From assembly GCF_921293095.1 (NCBI RefSeq), contig NC_060251.1, forward strand, positions 91,808,566-91,872,565: a DNA stretch of 64,000 nucleotides, written 5' to 3'. The DNA is from Ischnura elegans (taxonomy: Eukaryota > Arthropoda > Insecta > Odonata > Coenagrionidae). Both the position numbers and the translations under genes were made by a program. Below the pieces are notes generated by a model. That model did no database searches and was not told where the DNA came from. It saw only the letters and a program-made list of their open reading frames with translations. Each line of letters opens with the position of its first letter. Positions within the stretch are counted from its first letter, which is position 1. Shown one piece after another: positions 1 to 25,397 of this stretch.

Positions 1-113
1 GGCCTGAATAGCACGAATTTTAGAGAACGGAGGTATGGTATACATTTTTCACGTACATCGGAGACACTGCTGATATTTGGAATCAAAAAACAAATGAGTA
101 ACTACAAGCGGTA

Positions 114-2275
114 AGAAAGTTTGGGTTAACATTTTTGGTGTACATCCTCATGTCGGTATTTATTGGCATTTGACATCATTTAATGACTAGAATATGTACG
201 AAAATGATAACGTGGTTTTGTTTTGATGTCATATATCTATGGGCAATCATGTTTGAGGAATATATCAGTGTAAATATTCGATGTGAACTTGGGGTAACAT
301 TTCTGATGAACAATTTTCTCATGCAGCATTTATCCTTAATTTCATCGTTGTGGAGTAAAAATTCAATAGTGAATAATAAGTAGGTAAACATGTCGTGTTA
401 TTATGCAATTCCATTTAATGACTAGAATATGTACGAAAATGATAACGTGGTTTTGTTTTGATGTCATATATCTATGGGCAATCATATTTGAGGAATATAT
501 CAGTGTAAATATTCGATGTGAACTTGGGGTAACATTTCTGATGAACAATTTTCTCATGCAGCATTTATCCTTAATTTCATTGTTGTGGAGTAAAAATTCA
601 ATAGTGAATAATAAGTAGGTGAACATGTCGTGTCATTATGCACCTAGAACGCTTATTTGATGCAAATAAAAGCTTTTTGACCTTTTCAATTATTTCGTGA
701 ATGGAATGTGTCTCTAAATCATTAAGTCGATTTGTTTTGATGTCATCTAACTATTGGCAATCATGTTTGAGTAATGTATCAGTGTAAATATTCGATGTGT
801 ACTTGGGGTAACATTTCCGATGAACAATTTTCTTGTGCGGCATTTATCCTTATTTTCATCGTTGTGGAGTAAAAATTCAATAGTGAATAATAAATAGGTG
901 AACATATCGTGTTATTATACAACTAGAACGCTTATTTGATGCAAATTAAAGCAATGGGAGTTATTTTGGTTTCAGAAAGTTTGGGTTAACATTTTTGGTG
1001 TACATCCTCATGTCGGTATTTATTGACATTTTACATCATTAAATGGCTAGAATGTGTCTCGTAATGATAAAGTGGCTTAGTTTTGATGTCATCTAACGAT
1101 GTGTAAACATGATTGAGGAATATATCAGCGTAAATATTTGATGAGAACTTGGGGTAACATTTCTGATGAACATTTTGCTTACGAGGCATTTATCTCTATT
1201 TTCATCATTGTGGGGTAAAAATTCAATAGTGAATAATAAATACGTAAACATTTCTTGTTACATTTCAACTAGAACGCTGATTTGATGTAAATTAAAGCAA
1301 TGGCAGTTATTTTGGTTTCATAAAGTTTGGGTTAACATTTTTGGTGTACATCCTCACGTCGGTATTTATTGGCATTTGACATCATTTAATGACTAGAATA
1401 TGTACGAAAATGATAACGTGGTTTGGTTTTGATGTCATCTAACTATGGGCAAACATATTTGAGCAACTTCTCAGTGTAAATATTCGATGTGAACTTGGGG
1501 TAACATTTCTGATGAACAATTTTTTCATGCGGCATTTATACTTAATTTCATCGTTGTGGAGTAAAAATTCAATAGTGAATAATAAATAGGTAAACATATC
1601 GTGTTATTATACAACTAGAACGCTTATTTGATGCAAATTAAAGCAATGGGAGTTATTTTGGTTTCAGAAAGTTTAGGTTAACATTTTTGATGAACATCTT
1701 CATGCCGGTATTTTTGACCTTTTACATTATTTCGTGAATAGAATGTGTCTCTAAATCATACAGTGGTTTGTTTTTTATATTACCTAACTATGTGTAAACA
1801 TGTTTGAGGAATATGTCAGTGTAAATATTTTATGTGAACTTGGGGTAATATTTCTGTTGAACCAACCTTACAAGGCAGTCATCTAGATTTTCAACATTGT
1901 AGGGAAAAAATTCAATTTTGAATAATAAGCAGGTTAACATTTCTTGTTATATCGCAAGTAGAACGCTTGTTTGATGCAAACCTAAGCACTGGGAGGTATT
2001 TTGGTTTCAGAACGTTTGGGTTAACATTTTTGGTGAACATCTTCATGTCGGTAATTATTGACTTTTTACATTATTTCGTGACTAGATTATGTCTCAAAAT
2101 CATAAAGTGGTATGGTTTTTATATTATTTGACTATGTGTAAACATGTTTGAGGAATATATCAGTTTAAATATTTCATGTGAACTTGGGGTAACATCCCTG
2201 ATGAACATTTTGCTCACGAGGCATTTATCTTTATTTTCATCTTTGTAATATTTATGATAATAAATCTGAACCAGT
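114..2275 (+). repeat. Left satellite arm, ~346 bp tandem units
   Basis: The landmark TTTTGGTTTCA-AAGTTTGGGTTAACATTTTTGGTG recurs with starts near 961, 1307, 1653 and 1996, giving a period of 343-346 bp. Other landmarks are ACTTGGGGTAACATTTCTGATG and CAATAGTGAATAATAA. Units at about 1040-1300 belong to one subtype and those at about 1690-2250 to a second, more diverged one. Short reading frames here come from repeat sequence and are not genes. Confidence 0.9.
181..650 (+). repeat. Nested 235 bp duplication inside the left arm
   Basis: The segment from TAATGACTAGAATATGTACG to the GTGAATAATAAGTAGGT border is present twice, starting at 181 and 416 (235 bp apart), with only a few differences. 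It is shorter than the standard unit, so it is a recent local duplication of part of one monomer. The similar 66-71 residue frames it opens on both strands are by-products. Confidence 0.85.
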
Positions 2276-2695
2276 AAATAATTCTTTCTTTCTGTTTATC
2301 ATTTATACTAATGCAACTGTTTTAAAAATTGTTCAGTACCTTTTCAATATTGGCTACACATTTGAGATATCAAGGACCTCATACCAATGTAAAGTATTCA
2401 GTTTGCAGATCTGTCTATGTTGACATTCAGGAAAGGGTAACTGAGCATTTTTGTTGTAATCTTTACAATGCTTTCATGTGAAACCAAGGGACTCGAATAT
2501 TTATTTGCTTACGGTTGAATCAATATCTGTATCTAATTTTAGTTTGTAGTCCAACAGTACACATTGGTCCTATATTTAGTGGAACCTATGTAATATGTTT
2601 TCAGATAATTAGTATATTAAAAAAAAGGGTTTCCATTTACAAAAGGTAAGTACACTACCTTTAATGATGCTTATCTGCAATAAATTATTCTTGTA
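2276..2695. other. Unassigned AT-rich core DNA
   Basis: This lies between the left arm and the LINE fragment. It may be LINE 3' untranslated sequence on the minus strand, but no motif or tail can be seen. Confidence 0.4.
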
Positions 2696-3640
2696 CTACA
2701 AAGCAGAAAGAGAAGCTAACCGTTGCTGAAGGTCAATGACATCATGTAGTATTACTGCTGACACTGCAGTATGTGAATCAATGGAATAGAAGATTTTAAA
2801 GTCAACAGCGGAGATTGAGTGCTTTCTCAGATTTAAAGACCATTCTCCATTAATGGACTCTAGGGAAAATCCATGATAATTATCATTCACAAACAGTAAT
2901 AAAGGAAGTGGTCCCAGGTGGGAGCCCTGTGGAAAAGCAGATGTTGCATAAAATTGTGATGGTTCTGCATTCTGGATTTTATTTGCTAGTCCTCTCTTTG
3001 ACTTATAGCATGGGACCACATATTCCATTGGCTTTCAGTTTTGCTGCTGATAGAAAAATGATAAACTTAATTGAATGCATTTGGAAAAATCACAATACAC
3101 TGTACCTGAAAATGATCAGTAGGATCTGTAGCTACTAATAGCTGAAAAAGCAAAAGGTTTGTACCTAGTAGTTGAAGTAACGCACCTAAATCCTTGCCCT
3201 TAATCAGTAATCAGGTTTTCAAACACTTTGGCAAAAACTGACTGAATAATGGTCTATAATCACTAAAGGCTGCTTTACATGGGGCATGTAATTGCGCAGG
3301 TTAGAACTGCATTAATTTTCAATACGGCATAAAATTGCGAGAATGTGAGCTTGGGATTAGAAGAGGGGCTATTTTGTCATGCATTATCGAATGCGTCCTA
3401 GGAATTCACTGCTTTACAGGACACAATTTTGACTGTGCCTTTGTACATAAGTGTGATTGTGCAGTGACTTTCCACTTTTTCATTTTTTTAATAGTGTTAA
3501 CGTTTTTACACACAGGTATCACAATTGCTTTTTTGGAGGAGCTAGGAATTATGCCAGCATCTAGAGACTTGTTAAAGATAATATGGAGAGCTATTTTAAA
3601 TGTTTTGTTAAATAGTGGGGACACAAATTCAACTGCATTC
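2696..3640 (-). pseudogene. Decayed non-LTR (jockey/CR1-type) reverse transcriptase fragment
   Basis: On the minus strand, reading from high to low coordinates, the fragment shows in order an FNKSLDAGIIPS...AIVIPV block (about 3520-3610), a GFR...YCDFSK block (about 3040-3240), and PQGSHLGPLPLLLFVND followed by DFKIF (2790-2960). These match RT blocks of jockey/CR1/I-type LINEs: the region before the catalytic core, the QVD-Y-DFSKAFD region, PQGS-LGPLLF-IFIND and YADD-KIF. The catalytic YADD is degraded and several stops interrupt the frame. About 200 bp around 3262-3470 does not fit the RT and looks like an inserted piece. It is a 5'-truncated dead copy lying inside the fold-back element. 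Confidence 0.8.
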
Positions 3641-3912
3641 TTGAAGGAATAATACTACTTTTCTCATGAGTTACATGCAGTGGCATAGCCAGGAAGGTCT
3701 CTTGCCCTCTCTCCCCCAAAAGCATTAGTTTTAGCAGAAAAATATTAACCTATAAAACAAATTAATTCTATTCCACCGATACTAGGAAGCAAAACTAATA
3801 TTGACTATTATTTTTGTGAAGCAAAATAGCGTAACATGTCAATTTTACAGATAAAAATGTTCACATTTTCCCCAGAGGATTCCACCACTGTACCCCCAAC
3901 ACCATTCTAGCT

Positions 3913-4407
3913 CAGGTGCGCAGCTAGGAATTAGGCAAGGGGAGGTTTTAGGCGCAACTAACACTGGGGGATCTGAGGGTATGGAATACCCACTAGCAGG
4001 GGCGGATCCAGGATTTCTTTCTGGGAGGGGCACAAGCAAGGCCGTATCCAGGATTTTGGTCAGGGGGGGGCACAAGGATACCTCGTCATACAAAACAAAC
4101 GAAATGATAATGGGACCGTATTAAAAATCTAGCATATTTTTAAGGGTCTGGGGGGGGCACGTGCCCCCGTGCCCCCCCCCTGGATCCGCCTATGCCCACT
4201 AGGATAAGAGGGAGGTGCGGGGGCCCTCCCCTAGAAAATTTTTCAGATAAATGGCGAGTTTTACCACTTTCGGATGGATATTTTTATTAATCCTTACACT
4301 ATTCTATTAGTAATATTAATGCAATTAAGTAAAATGGATTAAATTTAAAAATTTCTCTGAAATCTGGGGGAGGGGTTTATCCCCAAAACCCCTCCTTGCT
4401 GCGCCTG
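3913..4407 (-). mobile_element. hAT-type MITE, middle level of the nest
   Basis: The copy starts CAGGTGCGCAGCTAGGAATT and ends GCTGCGCCTG. Flanks are TTCTAGCT and TCCTAGCT (7 of 8). It is the same family, in reverse orientation, as the copies at 48714-49018 and 59640-59949, and it is split by a further MITE at 3997-4194. Confidence 0.8.
3997..4194. mobile_element. 198 bp hAT-type MITE with G/C tracts, innermost of the nest
   Basis: Ends are CAGGGGCGGATCCAGG and CTGGATCCGCCTATG. A perfect 8 bp duplication CCCACTAG sits at 3989-3996 and 4195-4202. The interior has poly-G/poly-C tracts and the phrase ATCCTGGAT twice. Other copies are at 28844-32988 (split), 38739-39881 and 38823-39024. Confidence 0.9.
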
Positions 4408-4916
4408 TCCTAGCTACACCCCTGGTAACATGAGGCCAAAAGAATTACCTAATGGTCTAATGATCACCTATTAACATCTCTTGATGAGGTGATTGAATTT
4501 CATGTACTCAGTCCGATCACCATTTTTTAAAGGTTAAATGGTAAATTTTATTTTGAGTGATCCAAATTTTGAGAGCAGGGAAGAATCATTTAGGATAATT
4601 ACTCTTACTAAAGAAATTTACAGGAGTGAAAATGCAAACAGCATCTTAAGTACTGCATAAAAACTATTCATAGCATCATATAGCGATTTTGGTTTCATAA
4701 AATCTTATTGTCGGACCAGTAAATATAACTTGAAATAATAATTCAAACCAATAAAATCAGTTTTAAAAGTCATACAACAGTGTGATAAATACCACAGGCT
4801 TAATGGCAAATATTTTCCTCATACACTGACATCATTGATAGAATTATACCGTGTTTCCATGTGCTTTTAAGAGTTCCAGTCTTTTTCTGGGCAAACCTTT
4901 ATTTGTACTGTTAGTA

Positions 4917-5654
4917 CAGCACACTCCCGATTATCCGGCTACGGTTTATTTGGGTTGTGGATTATCCGTGCATGATTGTCACTCTTGCTCTTTTTTTTCT
5001 GCTATATATTTTTTTAAAAATACAATCGGACGCAAAATCATCGGAATTACTGCATTAATGCGAGGATACACCAGGCTTATTATTTCCGTTACAATCCCCT
5101 ACGTAAAACTGAAGCGATCGCGCGCTAGCTGCATTGACGGGATCACCGTGTTCCTATTTTCCAAGCCTCGCAATGCACGACCGCGCTCCGTGATCACGGA
5201 TACTCCTTTACCGACCTTGGGATACACGCCCCGCAGCAGCTGCAATCTGGGCAACTTGTGCGAGACGCAACTAACATAAATGGCGCGGTGCCTGAAAGTA
5301 ATTTCCGACGTCGAGTAGTGGTTTTGAAGCATTCTTTCAAACCACTTTACTGCATCCGTGATCACACAGCCACGGATGTGTGGTTTTCGAAACCAGGCCT
5401 TATACAGAGCATTAATAATACAAGCACAACAATCTTATCGCCGCTAAAAAGATCGAGAACTGGCGAAGAAAGCTCTCATTGAGTCCGGGAAGCATTCTTA
5501 AATAACAGAATACCTGCATAAATAATATTATATTGTTTTTTACGTAAATTATGAACATTACCAGACATTTACGTAAAAGTTTAGGTTATCCGTGTTTTAC
5601 GATTATTCGTGCCGTCTCTCCCCATCATTAGCCCGGATAATCGGGAGTGTACTG
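4917..5654. mobile_element. pogo/Tigger-like non-autonomous element
   Basis: Terminal inverted repeats are CAGCACACTCCCGATTATCC and GGATAATCGGGAGTGTACTG, flanked by TA on both sides. This is the usual Tigger-type end and TA target. Frames on both strands inside it (up to 142 codons) do not resemble a transposase that I can recognise. Confidence 0.85.
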
Positions 5655-6068
5655 TATATGAAGTCATTTTCTTTTTATGCATGGGCTAATAATTCTCATG
5701 TACTGACTAAACTAGCAAGTGGTACTCATTTAAATACAATGGGTCGCAAAGATTTAAATATGGATTAATTTATTATGAAAGAGGTGGTTTACTGTTTATA
5801 GCATGTTAAAGTAGAATTGTTTCTTAAGCAATGTTTCGAGATATTAGTAATGGTCCAAGTCTGACCTAAATGGAAAGAACACCAGAGAGCTCTGCTAATG
5901 TCATATGCATAGGAAGAACTGAAGCCCTGAAATACATTTACTCTATCATGTACCTTTCCACGTGAACATGAAGCCCAAACACCTAACTTCTTGGTGTTCT
6001 ACTGATCTAAATAAACAAGAACAGATACCTACCAATATAATTTCCTAGAAGCAGGAAAAATTCAGTTA
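5655..6068. other. Core DNA between two Tigger-like insertions
   Basis: No gene or repeat end was recognised. It may be remnant transposase-coding DNA of the fold-back element upstream of the 7.5 kb fragment, too decayed to read. Confidence 0.3.
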
Positions 6069-7394
6069 CAGTAGACTCTCGTTATTACGAAGTTCATCGG
6101 ACCGATAGCCCGGAGGTATGTAATAACGAAGTTCGTATGAACGTTTCTCTTGGGAATCGTCGAAAAAACTGTACGTGATAAATGCGATTAAATTACGCGG
6201 AAATAAATATAAACAGGAAAAATCGTTTCAGTTTCGGCATGCGGCATGACGTTATCGAGGGTTGATATCCTCCCGAGTACAGTAAGTCCGATTTACGAAC
6301 TAGATGCGTTCCAAGACCTTGTTCCTAAGTTGATAAACCTACGGTCCGGCCGCCGAGAGTTGTCCGATGACATGCAGGATAGTCTACGTCGGGGCAGCGT
6401 TGCCAGGTGAGAAAGTGAAACGCCTATAAGGGCCTCCGTGAAGAATGGAGACGGAAAGGACGACGAGCGTGAAGGACCCAGTGGAAGAACCACTTGTTTT
6501 GGGGATTCGAAGAAAGGGCATGTTTTAGTTGATCAGGCTTATTTCGCTGCTCTGTATGCATTTGACAACGTTGTATGACTAGGCATGTGTGAGGTGCGTT
6601 TGGGGGACAGCGATTGCCTGCAATCCGTGCTGGCGAAGAGTTATCCGCACCTCATATTCTGCCGTCATCGGACCGGTCGTCCTGCATGCAAGGCAACGAG
6701 GAGTACGGTTATGATGCAGAATGCAACACTGCGCTAACTCACGATTGTGACGAATTGATCTAGCTGGGCGTGCAACGCAGCCGAAAAAATCGCTCTCCGC
6801 GGCAAGGAACAACGGGCGAAACGTTGAACAGTTCCTAACTTCACACCGGAATGAATGATACTTTGTTCAGATTATGCCCAGAGTACGATTTCCTCTACGC
6901 CGCACGGCTTAGCAACGGCTAAATCAAAAGGCACCAAATTCGAAATTTTTTAATGGTGTCATCTCTGCAAGTTCGTAAATCGAATGTGCGAAGGAAGAGA
7001 ACTAACTGTACATCAAATTTACGAGCTGTGAGTCTGTCACCGTGATTCCCAAGGAATGAAGTTCGTTATATGACGCTGCGCGAATGGTGAAGAAATAACC
7101 ATAAATGACGCTCTCGGTCACAGTACATGAGGACAACTTAAACGTGGCGTGATAATTAAAACTAAGCGTAGTGAATATCCATCTAAATGCCATAGCTTAT
7201 GCGTGGAACTTCGTAATAAAGTTCATTTTGTAACTACCAGGACCGGGACGGAGGTTCGTAATTTCGTAAAAACGAAAATTTTTAATAACGTTTCTTTTCC
7301 TATAGCTTGGATAGCTTTTCGTCGGGACCAACGATTTGCTTCGTAAAAGCGAGAACTTCGTAATAACGTTGTTCGTATTAACGAGAGTCTACTG
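6069..7394. mobile_element. pogo/Tigger-like element, ~1.3 kb
   Basis: Ends are CAGTAGACTCTCGTTATTAC and the matching AATACGAACAACG complement at the right tip, with GAACTTCGTAATAACG words inside both ends. The flanks are GTTA and TTAC, so the target is TA or TTA. A second Tigger-like element sits in its middle. No transposase was recognised, so it is non-autonomous. Confidence 0.85.
6280..7008. mobile_element. Tigger-like element nested in the 6069-7394 element
   Basis: It starts CAGTAAGTCCGATTTACGAAC and ends ...GTTCGTAAATCG...AACTAACTG, flanked by TA at both sides. The right repeat has about 16 extra bases between tip and body. It resembles the ends of the 52277-53576 element. CpG density is higher than in surrounding DNA, suggesting a younger age. 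Confidence 0.7.
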
Positions 7395-7439
7395 TTACAT
7401 ACCACAGTTCTCCAACCACAATTGTATTCCATACAAGGA

Positions 7440-7785
7440 ATTTATAGAAAAACTTATTTTTCTATGCATAGAAAATTTAGTAAAATGGTAAAAAAAGCTC
7501 ATACTGATGACTTCCTATGATCAATTGAGTAAGTTGAAGTTAAAGTTATCAAGTAAGTGTAATAAATGGGCTATGTGCTTTAGAAATTTTCCGCATGCCA
7601 ACACTAATACCAATATGTTTGTGAAAACATTTCACAACACTCTGAAAACCCATTACCTTAACTGGAAAGTTAACAGGATATTAGATGATTTTGTAACAAT
7701 TATTTTCAGAATGCAAAAACAGCGTACCTGTCTCTTAAGTACAATAGGATTATTGAATAGCCACCTCTTGGATTTGCAAGCGTAA
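7440..7785 (+). pseudogene. MULE transposase, C-terminal fragment
   Basis: The open frame 7507-7785 contains W-CFRNFPHANTNTNMF followed by FHNTLKTHYLNWK and RILDDF. In MULE-type transposases of arthropods the segment after the catalytic core reads roughly W-YCYR-...INTNM-LE-FHRTLK-.YL.GK..RLD, and the match is close in order and spacing. The DDE core that should precede it is not visible; a Tigger-like insertion lies just upstream. The frame ends before the SWIM finger, which continues in another frame. This is the transposase of the fold-back element and is dead. Confidence 0.75.
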
Positions 7786-7793
7786 ATTGTTTA

Positions 7794-8177
7794 CACCATT
7801 ACAAAGGCATCAAAATCCTTGATGAAAATGTAATGGTAGTGACTAAAGGCTAGTGTTGGAATGTCAGAGCCCAGTCTGATCCTTCGTCTTTGTACTTTGT
7901 CAAGTTGGCCAATGGTGATTGTAGCCTTCCAGAGTTGTGCTTCGTAAAATGCTGTAGGTTATCTTGTGCGGGTCTTTGTTCACACATGTATATTTGCTCA
8001 TACAGTGACAAACATTCAATATGGAAGCACGTTCATAAAGTTCACTCTTTTCAAGTTCGAAATCATCATACTTCATCAGCCCCTGCCTTTGAAGTTGAAA
8101 GTACAGCAAAATTGGACCTTTGCTCATATCATTTTCCAATAATGATTAATCTAAAGAACAGTTACTCCATTCTATAG
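7794..8177 (+). pseudogene. Degenerate SWIM zinc-finger segment following the transposase
   Basis: After a stop at 7851-7853 the frame reads CWNVRAQS, then a cysteine-rich stretch ending SHMYICSYSDKHSIWKHVH. SWIM fingers have CxC-xn-CxH; here CSY and WKH occupy those places, so one cysteine of each pair is replaced (C to Y and C to W). The W-V-SQS phrase before the finger also fits MULE-type proteins. SWIM fingers bind DNA or protein in MULE transposases. This copy cannot coordinate zinc as written. It continues the 7507-7785 fragment and precedes the Ulp1 segment. Confidence 0.65.
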
Positions 8178-8365
8178 AAAAGAGTTTGAAGCAAATAAAA
8201 TCATTCATCAATCAAAAAAAGTCACAGCCTCTCCTTCTCCATGTTCTTAACACTTTAAAATTACTGCTCGAGAAATTCGATGCAATTGAGCATACCACAG
8301 AACCTCCTAAACTGCAGCATGCAAGAGTACCCCCTACCTCTAATCTATAAGCAACTCAGTACAGG

Positions 8366-8581
8366 TTGCACCAAACCTCAAAGGATCGCAAACCCACCAA
8401 GCACTACTTCCAGAGCCCTAGCCGAGATCAACTAGAGTCCATTAAAGATTCATTAATGAATAATGAGTGTTGCTCTTTCACAGATCGAATTTCTTCGAAC
8501 AGTAATCTTCTGAAAACTGTTTGCAGGAGTGGCCAATATACAGTCAATTCTGTGCATCTAAATCACTTGATTGTTTTATAA
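8366..8581 (+). pseudogene. Linker between SWIM and Ulp1 segments
   Basis: This is a 71-codon open frame, hydrophilic, with a possible helical part (SRDQLESIKDSLMNNE). Position and composition suit the spacer between the transposase/SWIM part and the protease part. There is no domain of its own. Confidence 0.35.
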
Positions 8582-8619
8582 GTCATTTAGAAGTTGAGCA
8601 ATTAGCCTAGTGTGTATCA

Positions 8620-9130
8620 CCAGATTTTCAAAGAGGCTGGCTGTACGATACTGTAATCGCAGTTTTTCTAACAATTGTAAGCTCATCTATATCTACTGCT
8701 AGAATTATAGATACGGCAGTTTGTAGTTAGCAATATGAAATTAGAGAAGGTATTATCCCTTTTTCAGAAAATCACCTTCAAAGATGTAACTAAGCTAATT
8801 ATTCCATTTAATCCATTGAATTCACATTGGCTTCTCCTAGTAGTTAGGCTTAATGAAAAAGAAATTGATTTTTATGACCCTTCCAGTGATAGCATTAAGC
8901 CTATGTATAAATACGGTATTGCTCAGTGGGTTATATTCCTTGGTCATAAATGTAGTGGTGAGATTGCAGACTGGAAGACATTTCACCCAAAGCATCTGTT
9001 GCAAATTGATGGCCTTAACTGTGGGGTTTACATATCAAGGTTTGCTGAGCAAGATCTGAAAGGACAACCAGTCGATCCAGTTGCCTACAGGAAGTTAATG
9101 TTCAACACAATCACTGGGAGAAGCCACTGA
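8620..9130 (+). pseudogene. Ulp1/C48-type cysteine protease of the fold-back transposon
   Basis: The domain opens with PDFQRGWLYDTVIA at 8620. It shifts frame by one base near 8725-8732, then runs open from 8735 to a stop at 9128. In the second frame the catalytic set of clan CE (Ulp1) proteases is complete: His31 in NSHW, Asp48 in FYDPSSD, Gln90 and Cys96 in QIDGLNCGVY. The GWL-D entry and HWLL-V core are typical. Such proteases cleave ubiquitin-like conjugates, and in animals they are often carried by DNA transposons. Apart from the single frameshift the domain looks well preserved, better than the SWIM finger upstream. Confidence 0.85.
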
Positions 9131-9880
9131 AAACCATGCTTGCAGGCTACCCAATTGCCAGAGGTTAAAGCAATGTTTGTGTCTTCAATAGCTGCACCTT
9201 TTCATTCTTCTTTCCTATTTCATTTTCCTGTGTGCCTTAAATATTTTGCATGACATTTTTTCAGATCTTGAGATGACTTGCATCACATGCATCTTCTACT
9301 TACTTCTTCCTACTATCTTTTCAAATTTGATAGAGCATACTTCCTAGTTCAGAATTATAGCATTTGTATCATTTTATGTGCTAGTCATATTTTATTTTTT
9401 GTATTGGAAGGTATGCCAAGATAGCATATTTTTATTTGATTATTCTAGTCATTGCCATACATAACACCTTGAGTCTTCGACAAGGTCATGACTTTTATTT
9501 AGCTTTATCTATAAGGAAGTGCTAAGGTGCTTTCTATAAAACTGTGCAATATTTTTTGTCCTGAAATTTGATGTCATGTACATTACAGCTTGCTTAGAGA
9601 GCAAATTTTTGTCCAGTCGTTTTGTAAACAGCAAGCTAAGAAATGAATACGTCAAGCTGAGTTGCATAGCCATTTCTAATCATATGCAGCATGTCTATAA
9701 TCATTCAATAACAACTGGCTCTTAATATCCTTGATAAATAACATATGTACATATCTTTCTATTTTCCTAAGTCTTGAAGGCTCAGCATGTTAAGAGAATG
9801 TGCAAGGAATTTATTTATCTTCAGTTACATTATTTTTTACGTGATAGTAACACCTATATTGTAAATATGTAGATAAGCAG
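9131..9880. other. AT-rich 3' part of transposon core, nothing recognised
   Basis: No ORF, repeat end or RNA motif was seen. It may be the 3' untranslated region of the MULE-type gene. Confidence 0.35.
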
Positions 9881-9881
9881 T

Positions 9882-10080
9882 TTGCATGTCCCTTTCCAAG
9901 GACTACTACCTTGTCGCGGTGGAAGGGCTTGTGTGTTCCGTGAAATCTGCACAATATTGGCAAATGATACATTTTTCTCACTGTCATGTAAATTCACACC
10001 AATAATTTACAAGGGTAGGAACCAGACTAAAGGTAGTAAAATCCAGATAAATCGGCAAAGGTGATATCAACAGCAGTCTT
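9882..10080 (+). mobile_element. LINE 5' leader-like fragment
   Basis: The phrases CCTTGTCGCGGTGGAAGGGC, TTGTGTG and GGAACCAGACTAAAGGTAG are typical of the leader found before ORF1 in many arthropod non-LTR elements. Related phrases occur at 29536-29990. No coding part follows. Confidence 0.5.
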
Positions 10081-10372
10081 ATCAACAATACCAAAATGGA
10101 TAGCTGTTGAGTGTTACTTTCATGTACATATTTAAGGTACATACAGATTTTTTTCTGAAAATAGTCTATGTATTTTTGGAAAGTGTCTCTGAAAATAATT
10201 TTTTGAAATGAAAATTATTCTGTGAAAGTATTCTTGCCTCAATTCAATGCCAAAAGAAAAACAGCTATTTTTCTTTTTAACTAAAAATTTCTTTGTCAGC
10301 AAAAACATAAGTCAATCACCTGGCCCGAATGATTGATGGCAGTCCCCTTAAGTTAATATAACAAAAAAATTT

Positions 10373-13300
10373 TGCCTATTTATTATTCACTATTGAATTT
10401 TTACCCCACAATGATGAAAATAGAGATAAATGCCTCGTAAGCAAAATGTTCATCAGAAATGTTACCCCAAGTTCTCATCAAATATTTACACTGATATATT
10501 CCTCAATCATGTTTACACATCGTTAGATGACATCAAAACTAAGCCACTTTATCATTACGAGACACATTCTAGCCATTTAATGATGTAAAATGCCAATAAG
10601 TACCGACATGAGGATGTACACCAAAAATGTTAACCCAAACTTTATGAAACCAAAATAACTGCCATTGCTTTAATTTACATCAAATCAGCGTTCTAGTTGA
10701 AATGTAACAAGAAATGTTTACGTATTTATTATTCACTATTGAATTTTTACCCCACAATGATGAAAATAGAGATAAATACCTCGTAAGCAAAATGTTCATC
10801 AGAAATGTTACCCCAAGTTCTCATCAAATATTTACGCTGATATATTCCTCAATCATGTTTACACATCGTTAGATGACATCAAAACTAAGCCACTTTATCA
10901 TTACGAGACACATTCTAGCCATTTAATGATGTAAAATGCCAATAAATACCGACATGAGGATGTACACCAAAAATGTTAACCCAAACTTTATGAAACCAAA
11001 ATAACTCCCATTGCTTTAATTTACATCAAATCAGCGTTCTAGTTGAAATGTAACAAGAAATGTTTACATATTTATTATTCACTATTGAATTTTTACCCCA
11101 CAATGATGAAAATAGAGATAAATGCCTCGTAAGCAAAATGTTCATCAGAAATGTTACCCCAAGTTCTCATCAAATATTTACACTGATATATTCCTCAATC
11201 ATGTTTACACATCGTTAGATGACATCAAAACTAAGCCACTTTATCATTACGAGACACATTCTAGCCATTTAATGATGTAAAATGCCAATAAATACCGACA
11301 TGAGGATGTACACCAAAAATGTTAACCCAAACTTTATGAAACCAAAATAACTGCCATTGCTTTAATTTACATCAAATCAGCGTTCTAGTTGAAATGTAAC
11401 AAGAAATGTTTACGTATTTATTATTCACTATTGAATTTTTACCCCACAATGATGAAAATAGAGATAAATGCCTCGTAAGCAAAATGTTCATCAGAAATGT
11501 TACCCCAAGTTCTCATCAAATATTTACGCTGATATATTCCTCAATCATGTTTACACATCGTTAGATGACATCAAAACTAAGCCACTTTATCATTACGAGA
11601 CACATTCTAGCCATTTAATGATGTAAAATGCCAATAAATACCGACATGAGGATGTACACCAAAAATGTTAACCCAAACTTTATGAAACCAAAATAACTCC
11701 CATTGCTTTAATTTACATCAAATAAGCATCCTAGTTGTATAATAACACGATCTGTTAACCTATTTATTATTCACCATTGATTTTTTTACCCCACAATGAT
11801 GAAAATACATACAAATGCCTCGTAAGCAAAATGTACATCAGAAATGTTACCCCAAGTTCTCATCAAATATTTCCACTGATATATTCCTCAATCATGTTTA
11901 CACATAGTTAGCTAATATCAAGAAGTAACCACTATATGATTCTGAGACAGATTCTAGTCACAATTAAATGTAAAAGGCCAATAAATACCGACATGAAGAT
12001 GTACACCGAAAATGTTAACCCAATTTTTCTGAAACCAAAATAACTCCCATTGCTTTAATTTGATTCAAATAAGCATCCTAGTTGTATAATAACACGATAT
12101 GTTAACCTATTTATTATTCACTATTGTTTTTTTACACCACAATGATGAAAATACATACAAATGCCTCGTAAGCAAAATGTACATCAGAAATGTTACCCCA
12201 AGTTCTCATCAAATATTTCCACTGATATATTCCTCAATCATGTTTACACATAGTTAGCTAATATCAAGAAGTAACCACTATATGATTCTGAGACAGATTC
12301 TAGTCACAATTAAATGTAAAAGGCCAATAAATACCGACATGAAGATGTACACCGAAAATGTTAACCCAATTTTTCTGAAACCAAAATAACTCCCATTGCT
12401 TTAATTTGATTCAAATAAGCATCCTAGTTGTATAATAACACGATATGTTAACCAATTTATTATTCACCATTGATTTTTTTACCCCACAAAGATGAAAATA
12501 CATACAAATGCCTCGTAAGCAAAATGTACATCAAAAATGTTACCCGAAGTTCTCATCAAATATATCCACTGATATATTCCTCAATCACGTTTACACATAG
12601 TTAGCTAATATCATAAACAAACCACTATATGATTCTGAGACAGATTCTAGTCACAATTTAATGTAAAAGGCCAATAAATACCGACATGAAGATGTACACC
12701 GAAAATGTTAACCCAATTTTTCTGAAACCAAAATAACTCCCATTGCTTTAATTTGATTCAAATAAGCATCCTAGTTGTATAATAACACGATCTGTTAACC
12801 TATTTATTATTCACCATTGATTTATTTACCCCACAATGATGAAAATACATACAAATGCCTCGTAAGCAAAATGTACATCAGAAATGTTACCCCAAGTTCT
12901 CATTACATATTTACCTCGATATATTCCTCAATCATGTTTACACATGGTTAGCTAATATCATAAACAAACCACTATATGATTCTGAGACAGATTCTAGTCA
13001 CAATTTAATGCAAAAGGCCAATAAATACCGACATGAAGATGTACACCGAAAATGTTAACCCAATTTTTCTGAAACCAAAATAACTCCCATTGCTTTAATT
13101 TGATTCAAATAAGCATCCTAGTTGTATAATAACACGATATGTTAACCTATTTATTATTCACTATTGATTTTTTCACCCCACAATGATGAAAATACATACA
13201 AATGCCTCGTAAGCAAAATGTACATCAGAAATGTTACCCCAAGTTCTCATCAAATATTTCCACTGATATATTCCTCAATAATGTTTACACATAGTTAGCT

Positions 13301-13480
13301 AACATAAAAAACAAACCACTATATGATTCTGAGACAGATTCTAGTCACAATTTAATGTAAAAGGCCAATAAATACCGTCATGAAAATGTACTCCGAAAAT
13401 GTTAACCCAAACGATCTGAAACCAAAATCACTCCCGGGGCCTAATTGTACATCAAATATTAATATAATAACGGTTTCCAA
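10373..13480 (-). repeat. Right satellite arm, inverted relative to the left arm
   Basis: The landmark ACCGACATGA-GATGTACACC recurs at 10602, 10948, 11294, 11640, 11987, 12333, 12680, 13027 and 13374, a period of 346-347 bp over about nine units. It is the reverse complement of the left-arm unit. The first four units are almost identical (subtype with ATCAAAACTAAGCCACTT). The last five form a second homogeneous subtype (AAGTAACCACTATATGATTC). The last unit decays over 13430-13480. Confidence 0.95.
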
Positions 13481-13564
13481 TTCATTTCTACTTTTCTCTG
13501 GGACTCTAGCCTTAGAACTCGCCTTTGTTTACATTTTTTAATAATATTTCGCTTTCGGCCATCT

Positions 13565-13655
13565 TGAATTTAGATGTACGTCCTCATGTATACCAAACCT
13601 CCATTCGGAACGATTCAAATTGAACACGCAAATACAAGAAAAATATACTACAGAA
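13565..13655. repeat. Outer non-satellite part of the right inverted terminus
   Basis: Its reverse complement (GGAGGTTTGGTATACATGAGGACGTACATC region, given here only as GGAGGTTTGGTATACATG) matches the window start at 29-63. This shows that the inverted termini extend beyond the arrays. Confidence 0.6.
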
Positions 13656-13842
13656 GGAAGTTATCGCAGAGTTTGTGAAATTATCATCAGAGTCCTCTGG
13701 ATTGTTGATAATACACTACAAAGTTGAGTCGTCGCATCCTACCATCTTTGTTCTCTGCACTTGTTGTTTACACATAGAAAGTCAATGTGGCTGGCAGTTG
13801 CTCGGCAAGATTTTCCGTTATTTTTAGTAGAAATACGGCACA

Positions 13843-13995
13843 ATAGGTTGTAGTTCGGCTCCTAATTGCTCCATTAGCACCAAGGACGTGTTTAAAAATT
13901 TTAGTTTCCCTCAAAATACTGAGAGAAGAGCGAAATGGCTTCAAATATGCCGAAGGGACAAGTGACACCAAACAACGTCTTCCCGCCTACGTGAG
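13843..13995 (+). pseudogene. THAP zinc-finger N-terminal exon
   Basis: The frame reads IGCSSAPNCSIST...FKNFSFPQNTERRAKWLQICRRD and then a stop, after which HQTTSSRLRE continues to a GTAAGT donor at 13996. THAP domains begin M-x-C-xxxxC and continue F-FPK-xERR-KW-x-x, and all of these are seen. Met1 appears replaced by ATA (Ile), and TGA interrupts the frame at codon 41. THAP fingers are DNA-binding C2CH modules found in host regulators and in P-type transposases. With the start lost and one stop, this copy is probably dead. The splice donor is still a perfect consensus. Confidence 0.75.
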
Positions 13996-15416
13996 GTAAG
14001 TTTTTCTACACTTAACGGTTCCTTTAATACTATTACCTTAAATTTTTAATAGTGTTGATCCACGTATTTCAATTATTAGGTTTGAACTGTGCATAAGTAG
14101 TAATTTTTAAAAATATGCATTCCGGTTCAGATAATCCGGCGAGGTTCTTGACGAGTGTTTTTGTGCTTCTGTGTTTTCTATTCATCAATGGAATATGTGA
14201 AATTTTGTGACTAAACTATAATATTTAGTCTGGGTTGCAGAGATGATTGATGTAGTTCGTTACTACGTACCAGAAAGTGTAACAATAACTGTTAGTGCTG
14301 CTAGTTTTGTATTCAATAAAAATATTTGTTTTTGTCAATGCCGGTATGAAGTAATCTTACGGCCATTTACAACAATAAAGGCAATTATGTTTTTGACTAG
14401 AATCTGCGCATCTGGATACATATTAGTGGACGAAACTCCACTTTTCATTGCTTTATTTGTGTGTAGTTTATGAGAAGAATGACTATTATATTTCGAAGTA
14501 GTGTGAATGCTTAATTTTAGGATGCAATTAAAATCTCGACGAGTCGCTTTTGCGACTAATCTTTTCCTTGACTCATTCCGAATTTTTAATTCCAGTTTAA
14601 GTCCAGTGAAGAGGATTACATTCCTAGGGCTGGTTAAAACTGAAAAATACATTAACACCGAACTTTTGTCGTGGCCCAGTGCTTATTCTGCTGTCTGCTC
14701 CTGTGTACTTGAAGTTTCAACATCTTTGGCCGAATATTTACTTGTGGTACGTATTCGGGCTTAGTAACTAATTGTAAAATATGGAAATATATAATTAATT
14801 AGGTTTTTCTGAAATGGCTTCAGTGATTATCAAAGAGGACGGTACTATTCATGCCTAATTATTGCGAGATATTTAAAAAATATGGCTATGGAAAACTAGG
14901 AGTTTTTGATTATTTCTTCGTACATCATTTCAATTTCAATGCCTTGTTGTCAGTGTGTATATTATTCATATAAATTTTTCTAGAACTTATTGTTTTACTT
15001 ATACATTTACTTTTATTTAGCCTGTGTGTTTAATTTTGCTTTTATAAATGTTTTATAAATAGTGATTGTCAAGAGTGGATTGGGAGCTTATTGGTAATTG
15101 TAGATATAACTTATTCAAGACCTGATGTGGTATTGTGTGAAAATAATATGGTTTTAATGATATTTTTGAGATATCATGATTTCTGTTGCAATAAAAACTT
15201 CTTTAAAATGCATTTCTTAGTGATACGTTGTGATAAACCTAGGATATTGTACTCCTAAATCCATTTATGGTGTTTATCCTAAGCCGTAGGGGGATTTTCT
15301 GCCATTTCCTTTTGCGTTGATTCTATATTCTAGTGATTAGTAATGTTTACCATTGGAATAAATTAATAAAATTGATTTGCATTATCACTTGCCTGTTGCT
15401 GCTGCTGTTCATGCAG

Positions 15417-15488
15417 GTTCCAAGAGTGTCATTTGGCAAGGGAGCAACATAGGAAGAACTAGCACACGATGCTAAAATTACTGATTGG
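15417..15488 (+). other. Candidate internal exon (non-coding)
   Basis: 72 bases lie between a C/T-rich tract with TGCAG and a GTAAGT donor. Spliced to the THAP exon it gives a short frame that soon stops. A further acceptor occurs at 17048-17049 (TAATTGCAG). Splice-like borders alone are weak evidence. Confidence 0.3.
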
Positions 15489-16438
15489 GTAAGTTCTACA
15501 TTTTACAAGAAATACCCTGGCATTGAGCGTTCAACTACCCTTTCTCACCAGCATGCATGTATGAATAGGATACCACATTGCCATTTATTTGTTTGTTAAG
15601 GGTTGAGGTTAGTGTCTGTAGCTTTGAATATATTTGTTGAAGGTAATGCATTAAATGGCGCAATGGAAAATGGTGCACTGCAAAGTAAAAGTCAAAAACC
15701 TCATAATGAAAGTGGCATGTAAATATTAGACGCATTAGTTCTCATTAGTGGATTACTTAATCCTTATTGGCAAATTACTACATTATATGTTGTACTTAAA
15801 GGAATATATATTCCATGACGGTGTTAATGGAGAATGTAAATGTTGTTCATCTTATTGATTGGAGGGTACCATGAGCATTGACTTGAACTCTTCACTGAAC
15901 AGTTTTCTGGGGTTGAAATCTGTTCTTCATAATTACTAGTGGTTCTTTTGATAGGCAAGTTTGGTCTTGCTGTGCATTAATTCACTACTATTCTGAGATT
16001 CCTCTTATACAGTCAATTTTTTTCCATAACTATTGACTGCTTAATCCTGGTCTGAATGTTATTATAATGGATGTAATACTAGAGGAAACTGTATGACATA
16101 TTCCATGGTGGTGTTGATGGAGATAGGTAAATGGTGTTCATCGTTATAATGAGGGTCATTAATTGGGGGGTACCTTCACCATTGACATGAATTCTTTGCT
16201 GAACAGTATTCTGGGGTTAAAATATGGGATATGTTTGAGAATGCCTATTAAATGTGAAATCTATCAACCTATTCCGCTGTTTGGAATGTTTTAAAATGTA
16301 AATATTTTTTAAAGGGGGAGAGCATAGGATGGTCGAGATTAGGCAATGGAGTAGTTTAATATGACTGTATGTATTCAATTTGATAATAATTTTAGATGAT
16401 CTGATAAATGTTGAAATATTTGTGTGAAGGAGTAATGG

Positions 16439-16703
16439 CAATAGCGTAACTAGGAATATGCCTTGGGAAGGATAGGATGGCCTGGGGTAGCAACCACCCC
16501 CCTCCCCCTCAGACAACGAATCAGTCCAAGAAAATTTTTGAAGAATAACATTCCTGGAAATACATTTGAAATCATTTTGGCGCTAAAGATTTAACTTTTA
16601 GTCGATGCAGTTCAATATATAAAATAATTATAAATAATTTTTTTATTTCTCTGAGGCTTTGGGGAGGGATCTTTCCCTTCCTCCCCCCATAGTTATAACA
16701 CTG
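16439..16703. mobile_element. Diverged hAT-type MITE
   Basis: The left end CAATAGCGTAACTAGGAAT and right end TAGTTATAACACTG resemble degraded CAGTGGCGTAGCCAGGAAT ends. The flanking 8-mers AGTAATGG and AGTAACAG share six positions. Poly-C and poly-G tracts are as in the family at 48714-49018. Confidence 0.55.
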
Positions 16704-17984
16704 AGTAACAGTGTTATGGAATGTTAATGTCATATCATTCCTTTTTATAATTTTGTATGCTGACAGGAAGATTGCCATCTTGGTAATAATATTAATTTCC
16801 AGAAAGTTGTCTGCCAATTGAAATTGCACGTTTATTAATTTCCTATTGCTCAAACCATGAAAGATGATATAGAAACTTAAGTGATTGTATGTTTAATAAA
16901 CATCTACACATTATAGAACTTTATCAGGACTGTTGATTGTGAGAATTTGATGTATCACTAATTGTAAGATGCTGTTCATTAAAACTACTAATGAATTAAT
17001 GCTTTTGGTGTAATAAAGCTCAAAATTTTATTTATATTTTTAATTGCAGGTTCAGATATTCGAGTAGTCAATGTCATTGGTGGTAAAGGAACATAGCAAC
17101 ATTGAGAAGAATGCAAGATGTGTGGCAGCTGTCATCACCTATTCATCATTATCTCCTACTAATTTGAATCCATTTTAATAGAAATGTTACATCTTGTGCA
17201 CTTAAGATTTATTTTTTATTTTGCAATATGTGAATAATCTTAGTTTCAATGGAATTGTTAAATCATTCTGGAAATCTTAAAATGTAACATTTGTGGTGTG
17301 TGTACATTATATACTTTGGAAAAATGTGATTTTTTTCTTTTATAAACCTCCTTTGATGATATCTTTTATGATCTGCAACTCTCGTGAAAAGTACATAAAC
17401 TGCATGACAGCTTGTGACTTCTGTAGTTTTTCTTGTCTAATTTTGAGGTAGGATAATATTTCCGATTTTTCGGCACTAAAAATTAACCAGACTTGTCCTC
17501 AAATTCCTCGTATAATATCCATTGCGCTGTTTTCATGGAAGTTAACTCAGATAGTACATGCGAAATCTCTTCCGATCTGAAGATAACAATTCTCTCTCAG
17601 CTGATATTGTACTTTTCAAAATCTGAAATTATTCCTTTGACGAGAACAAAACGCTATATAGTAGCCCTGGGAGCAGTAATTGTACTTTTGGAAACAATTT
17701 ACCCTGTTTCAGACATAAATATGAGAGTTTCATATCTAGAAAAACATCCTGTGAAAAGAATCAAAACTTAACTGAAGCGCGAATATTTGTTATTTTTCAC
17801 GATTTAAAATTTACAAATTGATAGTAAAGTGTTCCCAGTACATCAAGATTGAATATATTATAATTTATAATTACCGAAAATGCGACAGGAATCGCGTATT
17901 TATGAAAAAAACTGGCATTATATCACTTTCCCCCATAAGACTCTATAGAGACGGAAGAACTAAAATGGCGGACGTCTCAATTCC
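16704..17984. other. AT-rich DNA without recognised gene
   Basis: It holds one candidate acceptor and exon start at 17050, and otherwise only short accidental frames. Confidence 0.3.
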
Positions 17985-18599
17985 CATAGTGGAAGTGTAT
18001 GGAACGACTCGACCCTATGAGGGAGTAGTGTAGAGAACTGCCATCCAGAGGACTCTGATTATCTTCACTTTCGTGCGCCAACCTCGTCGTGACGGATCAG
18101 TAAACGAGCAAACAAATGCGTTTACCTCCCACCCTCACCGCTCCCTGTGGTGACTGACTTCAGCGGGTAATTCAAACTTTTTTCCAAGCGTGCTTATGAT
18201 ATATTTTAAAACGCGTTTGGATGTATTTCGCATCTCACCACGAATTTCATTTGAAAATTTTCAGTCTCCTTTATGTAGTCAAATAAAATTTGGTGAGCTT
18301 GAATCTCAAGCTGTAGTTATGAAAGTTTTGGTACTTTTCAGAATAGCTGTTAAGCATTCCCTTCAGCCCATTGATTGAGAGGAAATTATTGCGTCCCGTA
18401 AGCGAGAGAAGAGATTTCTTTAGGAACAAGATGATCAAGGAAGACGTTCTTTTGATTTCTTCATTAAGTCTGATTCTTCTAAAAGGATATAAGGGATGCG
18501 ATGTGGTAAGCAAAAAGACCTCCTCAATGTTTTTTAGAACATCCTATTCGTCCCTAGAGTGTATTTCAAGAGATAAAGATTGAAAATTCAAGAAAATCA

Positions 18600-19700
18600 G
18601 CCACACCTTACGGTACCTGCACTCATTCATGTAGTTACATCCCTCTCCTAAGAATGTGATCCTTCGCACCCAGTAATTCTGATGTGTGGACCACTCTTAT
18701 TCCTTTCCATCATCCCAGGCCTCATTTTGCACCAGCCTCGATCTTCCCCTCATGCGGAGTAGCTCATCTGCCATTTATCAAGGTCCTAAAGTCTTAAGAA
18801 CAAGTAGATGAGTGTCCAGCAGCACTTCTCCTGAGTCAGAACCACACCTGACTCATCCAGCTTATCTTCCTTTTAGTGCCAAACAAGGGGATCAGATAAT
18901 GCCAGCATATTATAGACTTCTAAACAAAATGATGCCGCAGACGATCACCAAAATCTACTTAATTTAACATGTGCACACATTAACAACTGCAAAACCGCTT
19001 TCATGACCCTGATGACAAGTATGCCCTAGAATATTCCTTAGAACCTTCTAGTAGGTTGTTGTGGCTCAACGATCCAACTTGACGATGTAATGGCAATTGC
19101 CGAGCTCCTTCAAGCTGGTACCAAACTGCCAACTGTGATGATTTCCTGCATACATCTTTGCCTGTCCACTCTCCTCCACTCCCCTCATTTTGAGGCTTCA
19201 GTTTCGGGAAAAGTTAAAAAAATATGTTTGAATATAGTCCCCCCCTTTACTTTTACCATGGGCATTTTTGGAAAAAAAGGGGGGACTATATTCAGACATA
19301 TACGGTAATGTCCCGTAACTTGGTGGTCAGTGGAGTGGGATCATCAGTAGCAGCCTTACATCTCTTCTTCAGCATCTAGATGCTGTGTTCCGCGAGTCCA
19401 TTTGTGGCTGGGTGATTAGGTGTGCCTTTAACGGTCGAATCATAAAATGTCACATCAATCAGCTGATTGCCACATTGGTTCCGAAGAAACAAGTCACATT
19501 CTCACCTATGTTTCCACAGCACACAATGGGTGTGCCATCCTCAGCAGGAGCTGCAGGGGTGCCACCTGATTGTCAATTGTCGCCGATCACTGCTGGCACC
19601 TTCTCCTCCATAAGTGGTTCGACCAGCCCTGTCTCCTTCAGCCAGTAGCCTCCTCCCGCACCCTGCCAGGAACCGTATGTTGTCTTCAAATAAGCGGGGG
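18600..19700 (+). mobile_element. Ty3/gypsy LTR-retrotransposon remnant (fossil)
   Basis: The clearest part, about 19400-19650, reads like the C-terminal end of a gypsy-type integrase (a KCHINQL phrase followed by a Pro/Ser-rich tail). Upstream sequence is pol-like but very decayed. No LTRs were recognised. It is clearly broken many times and old. A small palindromic insertion sits at about 19210-19308. Confidence 0.5.
19210..19308. repeat. Short fold-back repeat
   Basis: TATGTTTGAATATAGTCCCC followed by poly-C pairs with poly-G, GGGGACTATATTCAGACATA. The arms are about 35 bases around a ~25 base centre. It looks like a tiny MITE. Confidence 0.7.
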
Positions 19701-19996
19701 AGACTAATATGATTAAATGTTTATGTTAAAGTTTATGTTATGGATGCTTTCATGTCTATATCATGTAAAATGCAGGGCCGGATTTACCCAAAGTTATACA
19801 TGCTATAGGCACCTCTCCATTGAGCTCTCCATTGAGGAGTAATTACTAGAGCCCCCCCCCTCCCTGATTTTTATGATAAGGCATAGTCACTCACATGAGG
19901 TAAGGTTTGGAAAAAAGGAATAAACAGATATATGGCTGACAGCATAAATTTATGCTTGAATTTTTACACAGGGAAAACATAGATGACTCAATTAAA

Positions 19997-21672
19997 TAGA
20001 GATGGGTCGAATAGCAGATTTCTCGAATTCGAATATCGAATTCGAATATTAAATCATTGCTCGAATATTCGAATACCTCGAATTTCGAATACCTCGAATA
20101 CTAAATGATGAATGCTGGAATGTTTGACTCGGTTGCCTATGCAGCAGGCAACACAAGATTTTGGGGAGTAATTTTGATTTCCTTTAAATGATTCGAACAG
20201 GAATTTAGCTGATTAATGAATATTTTAATTTTATGGAAACAATTGGGCATATCATTAATTCAACTAACATCGCTTTACCCCCACTTCTGCTGCCAAGTGC
20301 TAGCTGACAATCTGAGGCATTTTGCAAAATACAAGCTCTTCTCCACCGGATTTTCTTCAATTATTTTCAGTCCATCTTTGGGAGTTCTCACGAGATAAGA
20401 TGATGAATTGGAATTGCTATCAGGGAGAAACCAAATATTCTGAGAAAATATCCCTTTGTCTGGGACTGTAACAATAAAGATTTATAGCACCACTCATAAA
20501 TTGTAACTTGATATATGCTATCGGAAAAAAATACCGCATCAACTTCCGAGAAGCTCTGCTGCTCATATCGAGTTTCGCCAGAATGCTAAGTCTCCGTCGT
20601 ATTTTGACATTTATTTCTTTGCGTAAAATGCTTAAATAAACTCAGAAATACGTCGTGTTTGGTCTTATCCTTTTTGAAATTACGCGCACATTACTAATAT
20701 TTCAATTCAATAAAGGTGTAACATCAATTGACGAAAGTCATTCTTAGACACCTTTTGTGCTAATAGATGACTCATGCAGCGGTTGACCTCCACAGAAATG
20801 GGGAACTTCGAAGCTGGTAGGAAAAAAAAGGTCAGTGGGGGAGAAAAGGGAGGGCCCGAAACACGTTTCTATTGTTCTCGTGTAACTTGGTATTTTTTCG
20901 AAGCTAAGGTCTTCGTAATATGATCCCTGCGCGAGCTGTGACCTTTTTTTATTTCGAAGAAGAGAAAAGCTTCAGAGGGGGGGCTAGTGCTGAATGGAGA
21001 GGGATACCGGATCTTGGGAAATGCGCTAATGTAAGTATCCCACGGTACTCACACAGCAGTCGACCTCCAGAAATGGGGAACTTCGAAGCAGGTAGCCAGA
21101 AAAAGGTCAGTGGGTGAGAAAAGGGGGGAGGGCGTGAAACACGTTTTTATTGTTCTCGTAACTCGATATTTTTTTCGAAGCAGGGGTCTTCGTAATGCGA
21201 TCCCTGAGCGAGCTGGGACCTTTTGTTTGATTTCTGAGAAGAGGAAAGCGTCAGAGTGGGTGAGGCGAGGGCTGAATGGAGGGGGATAGCGGATCGTGGG
21301 AAATGCCCTAAGGTTGCTATCCCACGGCACTGAGGTTCTCCTGGTGGGGGGGAATCGGGGATTTTCGGATTTTTTCACCCGACCATTTTCGGTTCCCCTC
21401 TTCGAACTCTTTTCACCGCTAAAATCCACGAATTTGATGTAATTCGTCAACTTGCGTAAAACGGCGCTGCGAGCACTAAATGACCACAGTTCTCTACATT
21501 TTTCCGAGTCAACTACCAACGACGTGCGTGCGACAGTGTATGACGCGAAATTCAAAGTATTCGAGGTATTCGAGGCGGTACTTTTCGCATAACTATTCGA
21601 AACCTCGAATATCGAATACTTTCTAATATTCGAGGTATTCGAGTAGTCGCGGATACTATTCGCACATCTCTA
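19997..21672. mobile_element. hAT element with TCGAATA subterminal array
   Basis: Termini are TAGAGATGGGTCGAATAG and CTATTCGCACATCTCTA. A perfect 8 bp duplication CAATTAAA sits at 19989-19996 and 21673-21680. Both ends carry runs of ATTCGAAT/TCGAATA words. The interior has a ~276 bp duplicated block (from about 20780 and 21057) and no recognisable transposase. The 168-codon minus frame at 21049-21555 is accidental. Confidence 0.92.
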
Positions 21673-25390: not shown

Positions 25391-25397
25391 TCATTTA

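Follow-up and report, generated by a model that had tools for sequence, protein, structure and literature searches.

A probable non-autonomous foldback-type Mutator element with long arms of 346-bp tandem units and a Ulp1-bearing transposase remnant in the damselfly Ischnura elegans

A stretch of 64,000 nucleotides from the genome of the damselfly Ischnura elegans (C6:91808566-91872565, where C numbers denote contigs; hereafter the window) carries at its left border a 13,602-bp element, which is very probably a non-autonomous foldback-type DNA transposon of the Mutator (MULE) superfamily. Two inverted arms of 346-bp tandem units enclose its core, and ends, arms and core move as one unit with 9-bp target duplications. 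The genome searched comprised 1,722,721,009 bases in 110 contigs. A preliminary description, made from the window sequence alone, had proposed a giant fold-back transposon at positions 1-13655; a single element is indeed present, but its true bounds are 15 and 13616. Similarity among copies runs out at ~13-15 on the left and at 13616 on the right, and the 9-bp target duplications of other copies adjoin exactly the ends equivalent to window positions 15 and 13616. The parts of the window copy, with the exception of the transposase remnant, are listed below.

15..13616, no strand assigned: whole element, window copy, 13,602 bp; ends set by alignment to copies at other sites
15..112, + strand: left terminus, composed of the inverted end (GAATTTTAGAGAACGGAGG...) and an outer spacer
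113..2246, - strand: left arm, array of 346-bp units with seven profile matches, some shortened; Tandem Repeats Finder and profile
2247..10374, no strand assigned: core, ~8 kb
2696..3654, - strand: possible reverse transcriptase fragment of a non-long-terminal-repeat (non-LTR) element; open frames, by eye only, with no Pfam match
3997..4192, no strand assigned: short insertion, not in the C2 copy
4915..5656, no strand assigned: nested element with 24-bp inverted ends, in six of seven copies including the window; C3 is deleted there
6065..7398, no strand assigned: nested element with 27-bp inverted ends, in six of seven copies including the window; C3 keeps 61 bp
10375..13458, + strand: right arm, array of nine 346-bp profile units; Tandem Repeats Finder, inverted pairs and profile
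13459..13616, + strand: right outer spacer and inverted end (...CCATTCGGAACGATTC)

Since the two nested transposons are common to six of the seven copies, they entered before those copies spread.

Tandem Repeats Finder gave a period of 346 at 704-2246 and 10375-13458, and profile matches stretched the left array to 113-2246. The arms of the window copy are thus 2.1 kb (left) and 3.1 kb (right) long and lie in opposite orientation around the core, as described initially. Within the window, a 21-mer taken from the unit has 12 occurrences, four on the + strand (left) and eight on the - strand (right), as compared with none in 100 shuffles. Positions 1-20000 contain 67 inverted pairs of at least 30 nt, the longest pair between the arms being 674-1713 with 10598-11637 (1040 nt, 89% complementarity). 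The inverted similarity said to continue beyond the arrays is present as well: the left end GAATTTTAGAGAACGGAGG and the right end CCATTCGGAACGATTC agree in 28 of 35 columns when aligned as inverted repeats and display the short pattern GAAT...GGAGG..TGGTATACAT. Hence, the element has the long terminal inverted repeats (TIRs) made of tandem units that mark the foldback type. It also shows the variable arm length expected of that type, the right arm including 7 to 13 profile units across seven copies and reaching ~4.4 kb in the longest (C3, C5).

The Ulp1-side piece of the core is present in 36 copies genome-wide, obtained by scoring all 38 candidates and merging 40 rows by hand. At least 31 of these copies have both ends within 30 kb, and at least 35 have one end or more, as paired by distance only; the chance expectation is 0.003 ends per core. 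Counts of ends and arms are lower bounds, as the best 40 of 48 left-end, 40 of 69 right-end and 40 of 106 array candidates were scored. The only core copy lacking an end among the matches listed (C9:41.23 Mb) lies 10-12 kb from unit arrays. Among the ends listed, seven left and seven right ones, including the left ends at C7:57.65 and 57.68 Mb, are more than 30 kb from any core piece; they are probably partial or different derivatives. Nine copies match the window core piece at 99-100% and the remainder at 93-97%; window positions 2301-10300 are 99.6-99.7% identical to the full cores of the C1a, C1b, C5 and C10 copies. Six fetched copies (C1 twice, C2, C3, C5 and C10) align to the window across both arms and core. 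The six copies with both ends in the fetched DNA are 10.2-15.3 kb long, the shortest being C3, in which an internal deletion extends into a nested element. The copy at C1:73.5 spans ~27 kb and therefore contains further insertions.

Both ends were read for 26 insertions. Perfect 9-bp target duplications were found in 18 of them and a 10-bp duplication in one; three have weaker duplications, one a displaced duplication and three none.

Perfect 9-bp duplications: C5:47.4 TGAAGCCAA; C10 AACAAATAC; C1:139 CAGTGTTTA; C2:147 GTGAAAGCA; C3:104 CGGAATATG; C1:73.5 TTCTCCAAC
Perfect 9-bp duplications, continued: C12 inner GTATACCAA; C12 outer TTTTTCCGC; C14:15.5 CACACTCAG; C11 GTACGATTG; C7:3.58 CTGACGAAT; C5:48 CAGGGCGAG
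Perfect 9-bp duplications, continued: C3:100 AAAGTAAAG; C3:74 CTGCCTGAC; C1:153 ATATATATC; C14:5.36 CTATTTAAT; C1:58 ACAAATCAC; C8:105 GGTGCAGAA
10-bp duplication: C19:0.86 GTGGTCCAAC
Weaker duplications: C2:79.56 (8 bp exact); C5:24.71 (8/9 positions); C19:16.02 (7 bp exact)
Displaced duplication: C9 pair (9 extra bases between)
No duplication: window copy; C8:81.67 (right end truncated); C2:144.88 (left end truncated)

The base table of 19 duplications shows A at position 8 in 13. The insertions at C7:3.58 and C1:139 struck a common dispersed repeat at points that differ by a few bases; an uninterrupted 19-mer of this target repeat occurs 82 times, one occurrence being the flank of the C1:139 copy, and the uninterrupted 19-mers thus serve as paralogous empty sites. 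The duplication length of ~9 bp falls in the range of 8-11 bp that characterises Mutator elements. The element therefore moves as one unit, as inferred in the preliminary description, which had suggested a search for other copies in the same arm-core-arm order and for a target duplication of 9-10 bp: the order recurs at sites on many chromosomes, with duplications of the length proposed, but the window copy itself has none. Hence insertion as one unit with target duplication, a further mark of the foldback type, is found in the family and not in the window copy.

Several insertions have an unusual structure. At C12:23626540-23654920, one copy is inserted into the right terminus of another, and both have perfect 9-bp duplications. 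At C9:41908945-41939585, two units stand head to tail with zero bases between them; the 9 bases beyond the second unit are the reverse complement of the first 9 bases of the element and are followed by the outer 9-bp duplication. The C7:3.58 copy has two right ends (C7:3572717-3573548), the inner one running directly into unit sequence, and the copy at C8:81672641-81672973 has two left ends 209 bp apart.

The history of the arms was followed by comparison of 99 full-length units from seven copies; shorter units were dropped, and of the 99-100% group the copies in C8 and C12, whose full sequence was not retrieved, are not among the seven. For 93 of the 99 units, the corresponding arm of another copy offers a match at least as good as the best one within their own arm; the mean best identity is 0.996 to another copy, falling to 0.954 inside the arm and to 0.924 between the two arms of one copy. 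The arms thus travel together with the core. Counting outwards from the core, left units four and five of C1a, C1b, C5 and C10 resemble right-arm units at 97-99%, whereas left units one to three do so at 84-90%; this suggests that units are exchanged between the arms.

It is possible, although somewhat short of an even chance, that the arms sustain mobility by multiplying transposase-binding sites, a proposal compatible with the assignment to a non-autonomous foldback-type element and one under which the arms may supply such sites in addition to those of the ends. The unit contains two related half-units (local score 32, without a shuffle control) and a stretch resembling the left end in 19 of 22 columns, equalled by 16 of 1000 shuffles. 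A similar role has been proposed for the arms of Galileo and Tetris, according to the excerpts of PMC4079207. However, in the four end-to-unit comparisons made, the score was matched by 13, 16, 209 and 211 of 1000 shuffles, so that two of them make the proposal a weak one.

The remnant of a transposase gene occupies the right part of the core.

7561..7722, + strand: MULE transposase remnant, part following the DDE domain; 70% identity to amino acids (aa) 1099-1152 of the L041 protein; no Pfam match
7716..8078, + strand: SWIM-like remnant; 50% identity to aa 1151-1270 of the L041 protein; no Pfam match
8150..8710, + strand: linker remnant with stop codons, by alignment to L041
8711..9130, + strand: Ulp1 (peptidase C48) remnant, 139-aa open frame; Pfam PF02902, 6.4e-10

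The relative L041 (C7:111.05 Mb, 3220-8121) has a 1633-aa open frame, in which the MULE DDE domain (PF10551) and Ulp1 (PF02902) are both encoded; between them lies what we take by eye to be a SWIM-like cysteine motif, there being no Pfam SWIM match. The window core aligns to L041 aa 1099-1627 in three frames and with stops. The MULE-SWIM-Ulp1 order is therefore retained in the element but the frame, single in L041, is broken, and by this alignment the core appears to be the broken C-terminal third of a MULE-SWIM-Ulp1 transposase. Two motif cysteines of the SWIM-like remnant are changed to Y and W, and the Ulp1 remnant retains the His/Asp/Cys positions (both by eye). A search of solved structures retrieved SENP1/Ulp1 at E values of 7e-4 to 3e-3, below three spurious pentatricopeptide matches. 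Pfam on nine core frames gave nothing useful, with one weak sub-threshold match; hence the MULE and SWIM assignments rest on alignment to L041. Of the three domains originally named in the core, Ulp1 was thus recovered by Pfam and the MULE C-terminal and SWIM-like parts by alignment, but the catalytic domain is missing: neither PF10551 nor a DDE query found one in the element. The internal DDE transposase that marks Mutator elements is therefore lacking, and membership of the superfamily is inferred from the remnant, the ends and the duplication, as for other non-autonomous elements.

A working Ulp1 gene in an autonomous element, with the other transposase parts spliced from separate exons, would accord with the 139-aa frame being open in all nine copies of subfamily A. 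This is nevertheless very unlikely, as no DDE match was found in the element, the linker contains in-frame stops, and the Ulp1 match holds stops in 17 of 20 copies of 93-94% identity. Furthermore, the ratio of nonsynonymous to synonymous substitution rates (dN/dS) in the Ulp1 frame is 0.46-1.69 in 19 of 21 pairs (two undefined) among seven copies, six of them chosen for open frames, and is thus near neutral. The youngest copies spread with a transposase gene that was already broken. Given the broken frame and the lack of a DDE domain, the family is non-autonomous and most likely moved in trans.

The 21-mer of the unit has only 410 exact occurrences in the whole genome (1.72 Gb), split 206 to 204 between the strands (control, 0). 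The positions of 100 of these (C1 and part of C2) were listed, and the figures on placement refer to those 100. Mapped copies account for 78 (C1:58, C1:73.5, C1:139, C1:153, C2:79.6, C2:87.4, C2:144.9 and C2:147.1) and a dense cluster of units at C2:31445669-31508235 (31.45-31.51 Mb) for 21; the last is next to an isolated left end at C1:12.59 Mb. To judge by the listed places, the unit belongs to the element and is rare outside it. That host satellite arrays flank an unrelated MULE remnant by chance is highly improbable. The unit is a long tandem repeat, Tetris units likewise make kb-size satellite arrays (in the excerpts of PMC4079207), and the C2 cluster includes no core piece and, among the matches listed, no right end. 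However, this cluster also has three left ends, and an identical arm-core-arm order is found at many sites with target duplications. A long host array without the core, or cores without arms, would have contradicted the idea of one mobile unit from the outset; no such array is among the 100 listed places and nearly all cores have an end, the C2 cluster being the point on the other side. Spread of the block by segmental duplication instead of transposition is the least credible alternative, drawn from a common left flank at C7:57.65 and 57.68 Mb, and is refuted for the copies carrying target duplications, as similarity halts at the element ends in the compared copies and the 9-bp duplications adjoin those ends.

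The window copy is flanked by different sequences, GAATAGCAC on the left and AAATTGAAC on the right. Given the lack of a target duplication, it most likely arose by recombination between two copies or by loss of a flank. Its left arm is nearest to that of the C2:147 copy (9 differences in 1404, versus 18-19 for four others), whereas a right-arm unit is far from that copy (14 differences in 342, versus 0-1 elsewhere), a pattern consistent with a recombinant. Galileo copies flanked by different sequences, to which the window copy in its recombinant interpretation may be likened, are described in the excerpts of PMC3573991. The window copy may instead be the product of a lost flank or of misassembly, and not of recombination.

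For a non-autonomous foldback-type element, a MULE transposase from another locus would recognise the short inverted ends, excise the unit of 13-15 kb and reinsert it elsewhere. The 346-bp arms would lengthen or shorten by unequal exchange, and left and right arms could swap units by foldback pairing. Possible sources of the transposase are of two kinds. The loci at C7:57.65 and 57.68 Mb, which probably represent one duplicated insertion in view of their shared flank, resemble the element at the left end (82-83%) and contain a DDE match 7-14 kb further in. The related MULE frames L043, L044 and L045 span 1355-1371 aa and include a Ulp1 match; their 99.8% identity over 3.7 kb suggests a recently active MULE-Ulp1 family.

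Several observations weigh against this interpretation. An intact transposase with the same ends as the element was not found. The DDE matches at C7:57.65 and 57.68 Mb contain stops, and the sequence read from their left ends (1.5 kb and 0.16 kb) contains no 346-bp unit. The DNA near the 1355-1633-aa MULE-Ulp1 frames, in which most frame ends were not covered, showed no similar end except a 14-bp match (E 0.62). With regard to the window copy, the reciprocal junction of right end and left flank gave 0 matches, so that a recombination origin is unproven; that of left end and right flank gave two, in which the following 80-base stretches are unlike the element. The choice of six Ulp1 copies for open frames, which would if anything favour a signal of constraint, and the two end-to-unit comparisons that many shuffles equal are to be added here.

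The rest of the window contains four related AT-rich arrays in which a TATTATGCACATA-like motif is tandemly repeated (22262-22596, 28698-28829, 32992-33351 and 36410-37020) and a tandem array of a 259-bp unit (24444-25395, 3.7 copies). A 264-aa frame on the minus strand (46374-47168) resembles by eye the end of a non-LTR reverse transcriptase, with no Pfam match, and a 135-aa frame (62208-62615) resembles a helicase C-terminus (Pfam sub-threshold only).

Tentatively, and with rather more doubt than confidence, the family may be seen as one in which a MULE-SWIM-Ulp1 transposase lineage begot giant foldback elements, whose 346-bp arms of up to 4.4 kb came after gene death under selection for mobility, were homogenised by foldback pairing, and which also insert into their own termini (C12, C9). 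With 36 core copies, nine of them nearly identical, the family unites foldback arms and Ulp1-bearing Mutators, previously known separately. It makes testable why arms grow long after gene loss and whether tandem arm units aid mobilisation in trans. The dozens of sites with long inverted arms are, moreover, likely points of rearrangement, and the window copy may be one.

FB and FB-NOF elements of Drosophila have long inverted arms of tandem repeats, variable arm length, a 9-bp duplication and Mutator affinity, and the damselfly element resembles them in each of these respects. It differs from FB by its 346-bp units, FB units being much shorter, by arms of up to 4.4 kb, and by Ulp1 in the transposase remnant. 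Ulp1 alone is not new, as Ulp1-bearing Mutators are in print for hydra, lancelet and plants (excerpts of PMC2836005). These elements (PMC2836005, PMC2528002) share with the damselfly element a Ulp1 protease domain in a Mutator context, but the excerpts mention no foldback satellite arms, and KI-MULEs are described there as without TIRs and with ULP in reverse orientation. Phantom and Rehavkus (excerpts of PMC6446971) are likewise arthropod MULEs with duplications of 8-10 bp and, in some, a minisatellite close to one end, but their TIRs reach only 613 bp (Phantom) and 400 bp (Rehavkus); the main text of PMC6446971 has no words beginning with ulp, peptidase or protease. Tm1 of root-knot nematodes has a Phantom-type Mutator transposase, composite foldback TIRs and 9-bp duplications, but arm motifs of ~14 bp and elements of ~1 kb, with no Ulp1 mentioned in the excerpts of PMC3169594. 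Galileo of Drosophila resembles the element in its long TIRs, ~210-bp tandem units in one subfamily, changes of arm size and chimeric copies without matching duplications, but belongs to the P superfamily, with 7-bp duplications and TIRs of up to ~1.26 kb (excerpts of PMC3573991). Tetris of Drosophila virilis is also non-autonomous, with foldback arms of ~220-bp units, 8-10 bp duplications and no intact transposase, but its TIRs are at most 1,735 bp and its units also occur as kb-size satellite arrays (excerpts of PMC4079207); the damselfly element, by contrast, retains a MULE-Ulp1 remnant, and no such array was found among the 100 listed places of its unit. An element uniting foldback arms with a Ulp1-bearing Mutator was not found among the matches listed in the open-licence PMC literature. 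The initial view that a Ulp1-bearing foldback element with such long arms is not a standard description thus needs narrowing in respect of Ulp1, already published in Mutators. What is new is the pairing of foldback arms with a Ulp1-bearing Mutator remnant, together with arms of up to 4.4 kb and units longer than those of the elements compared.

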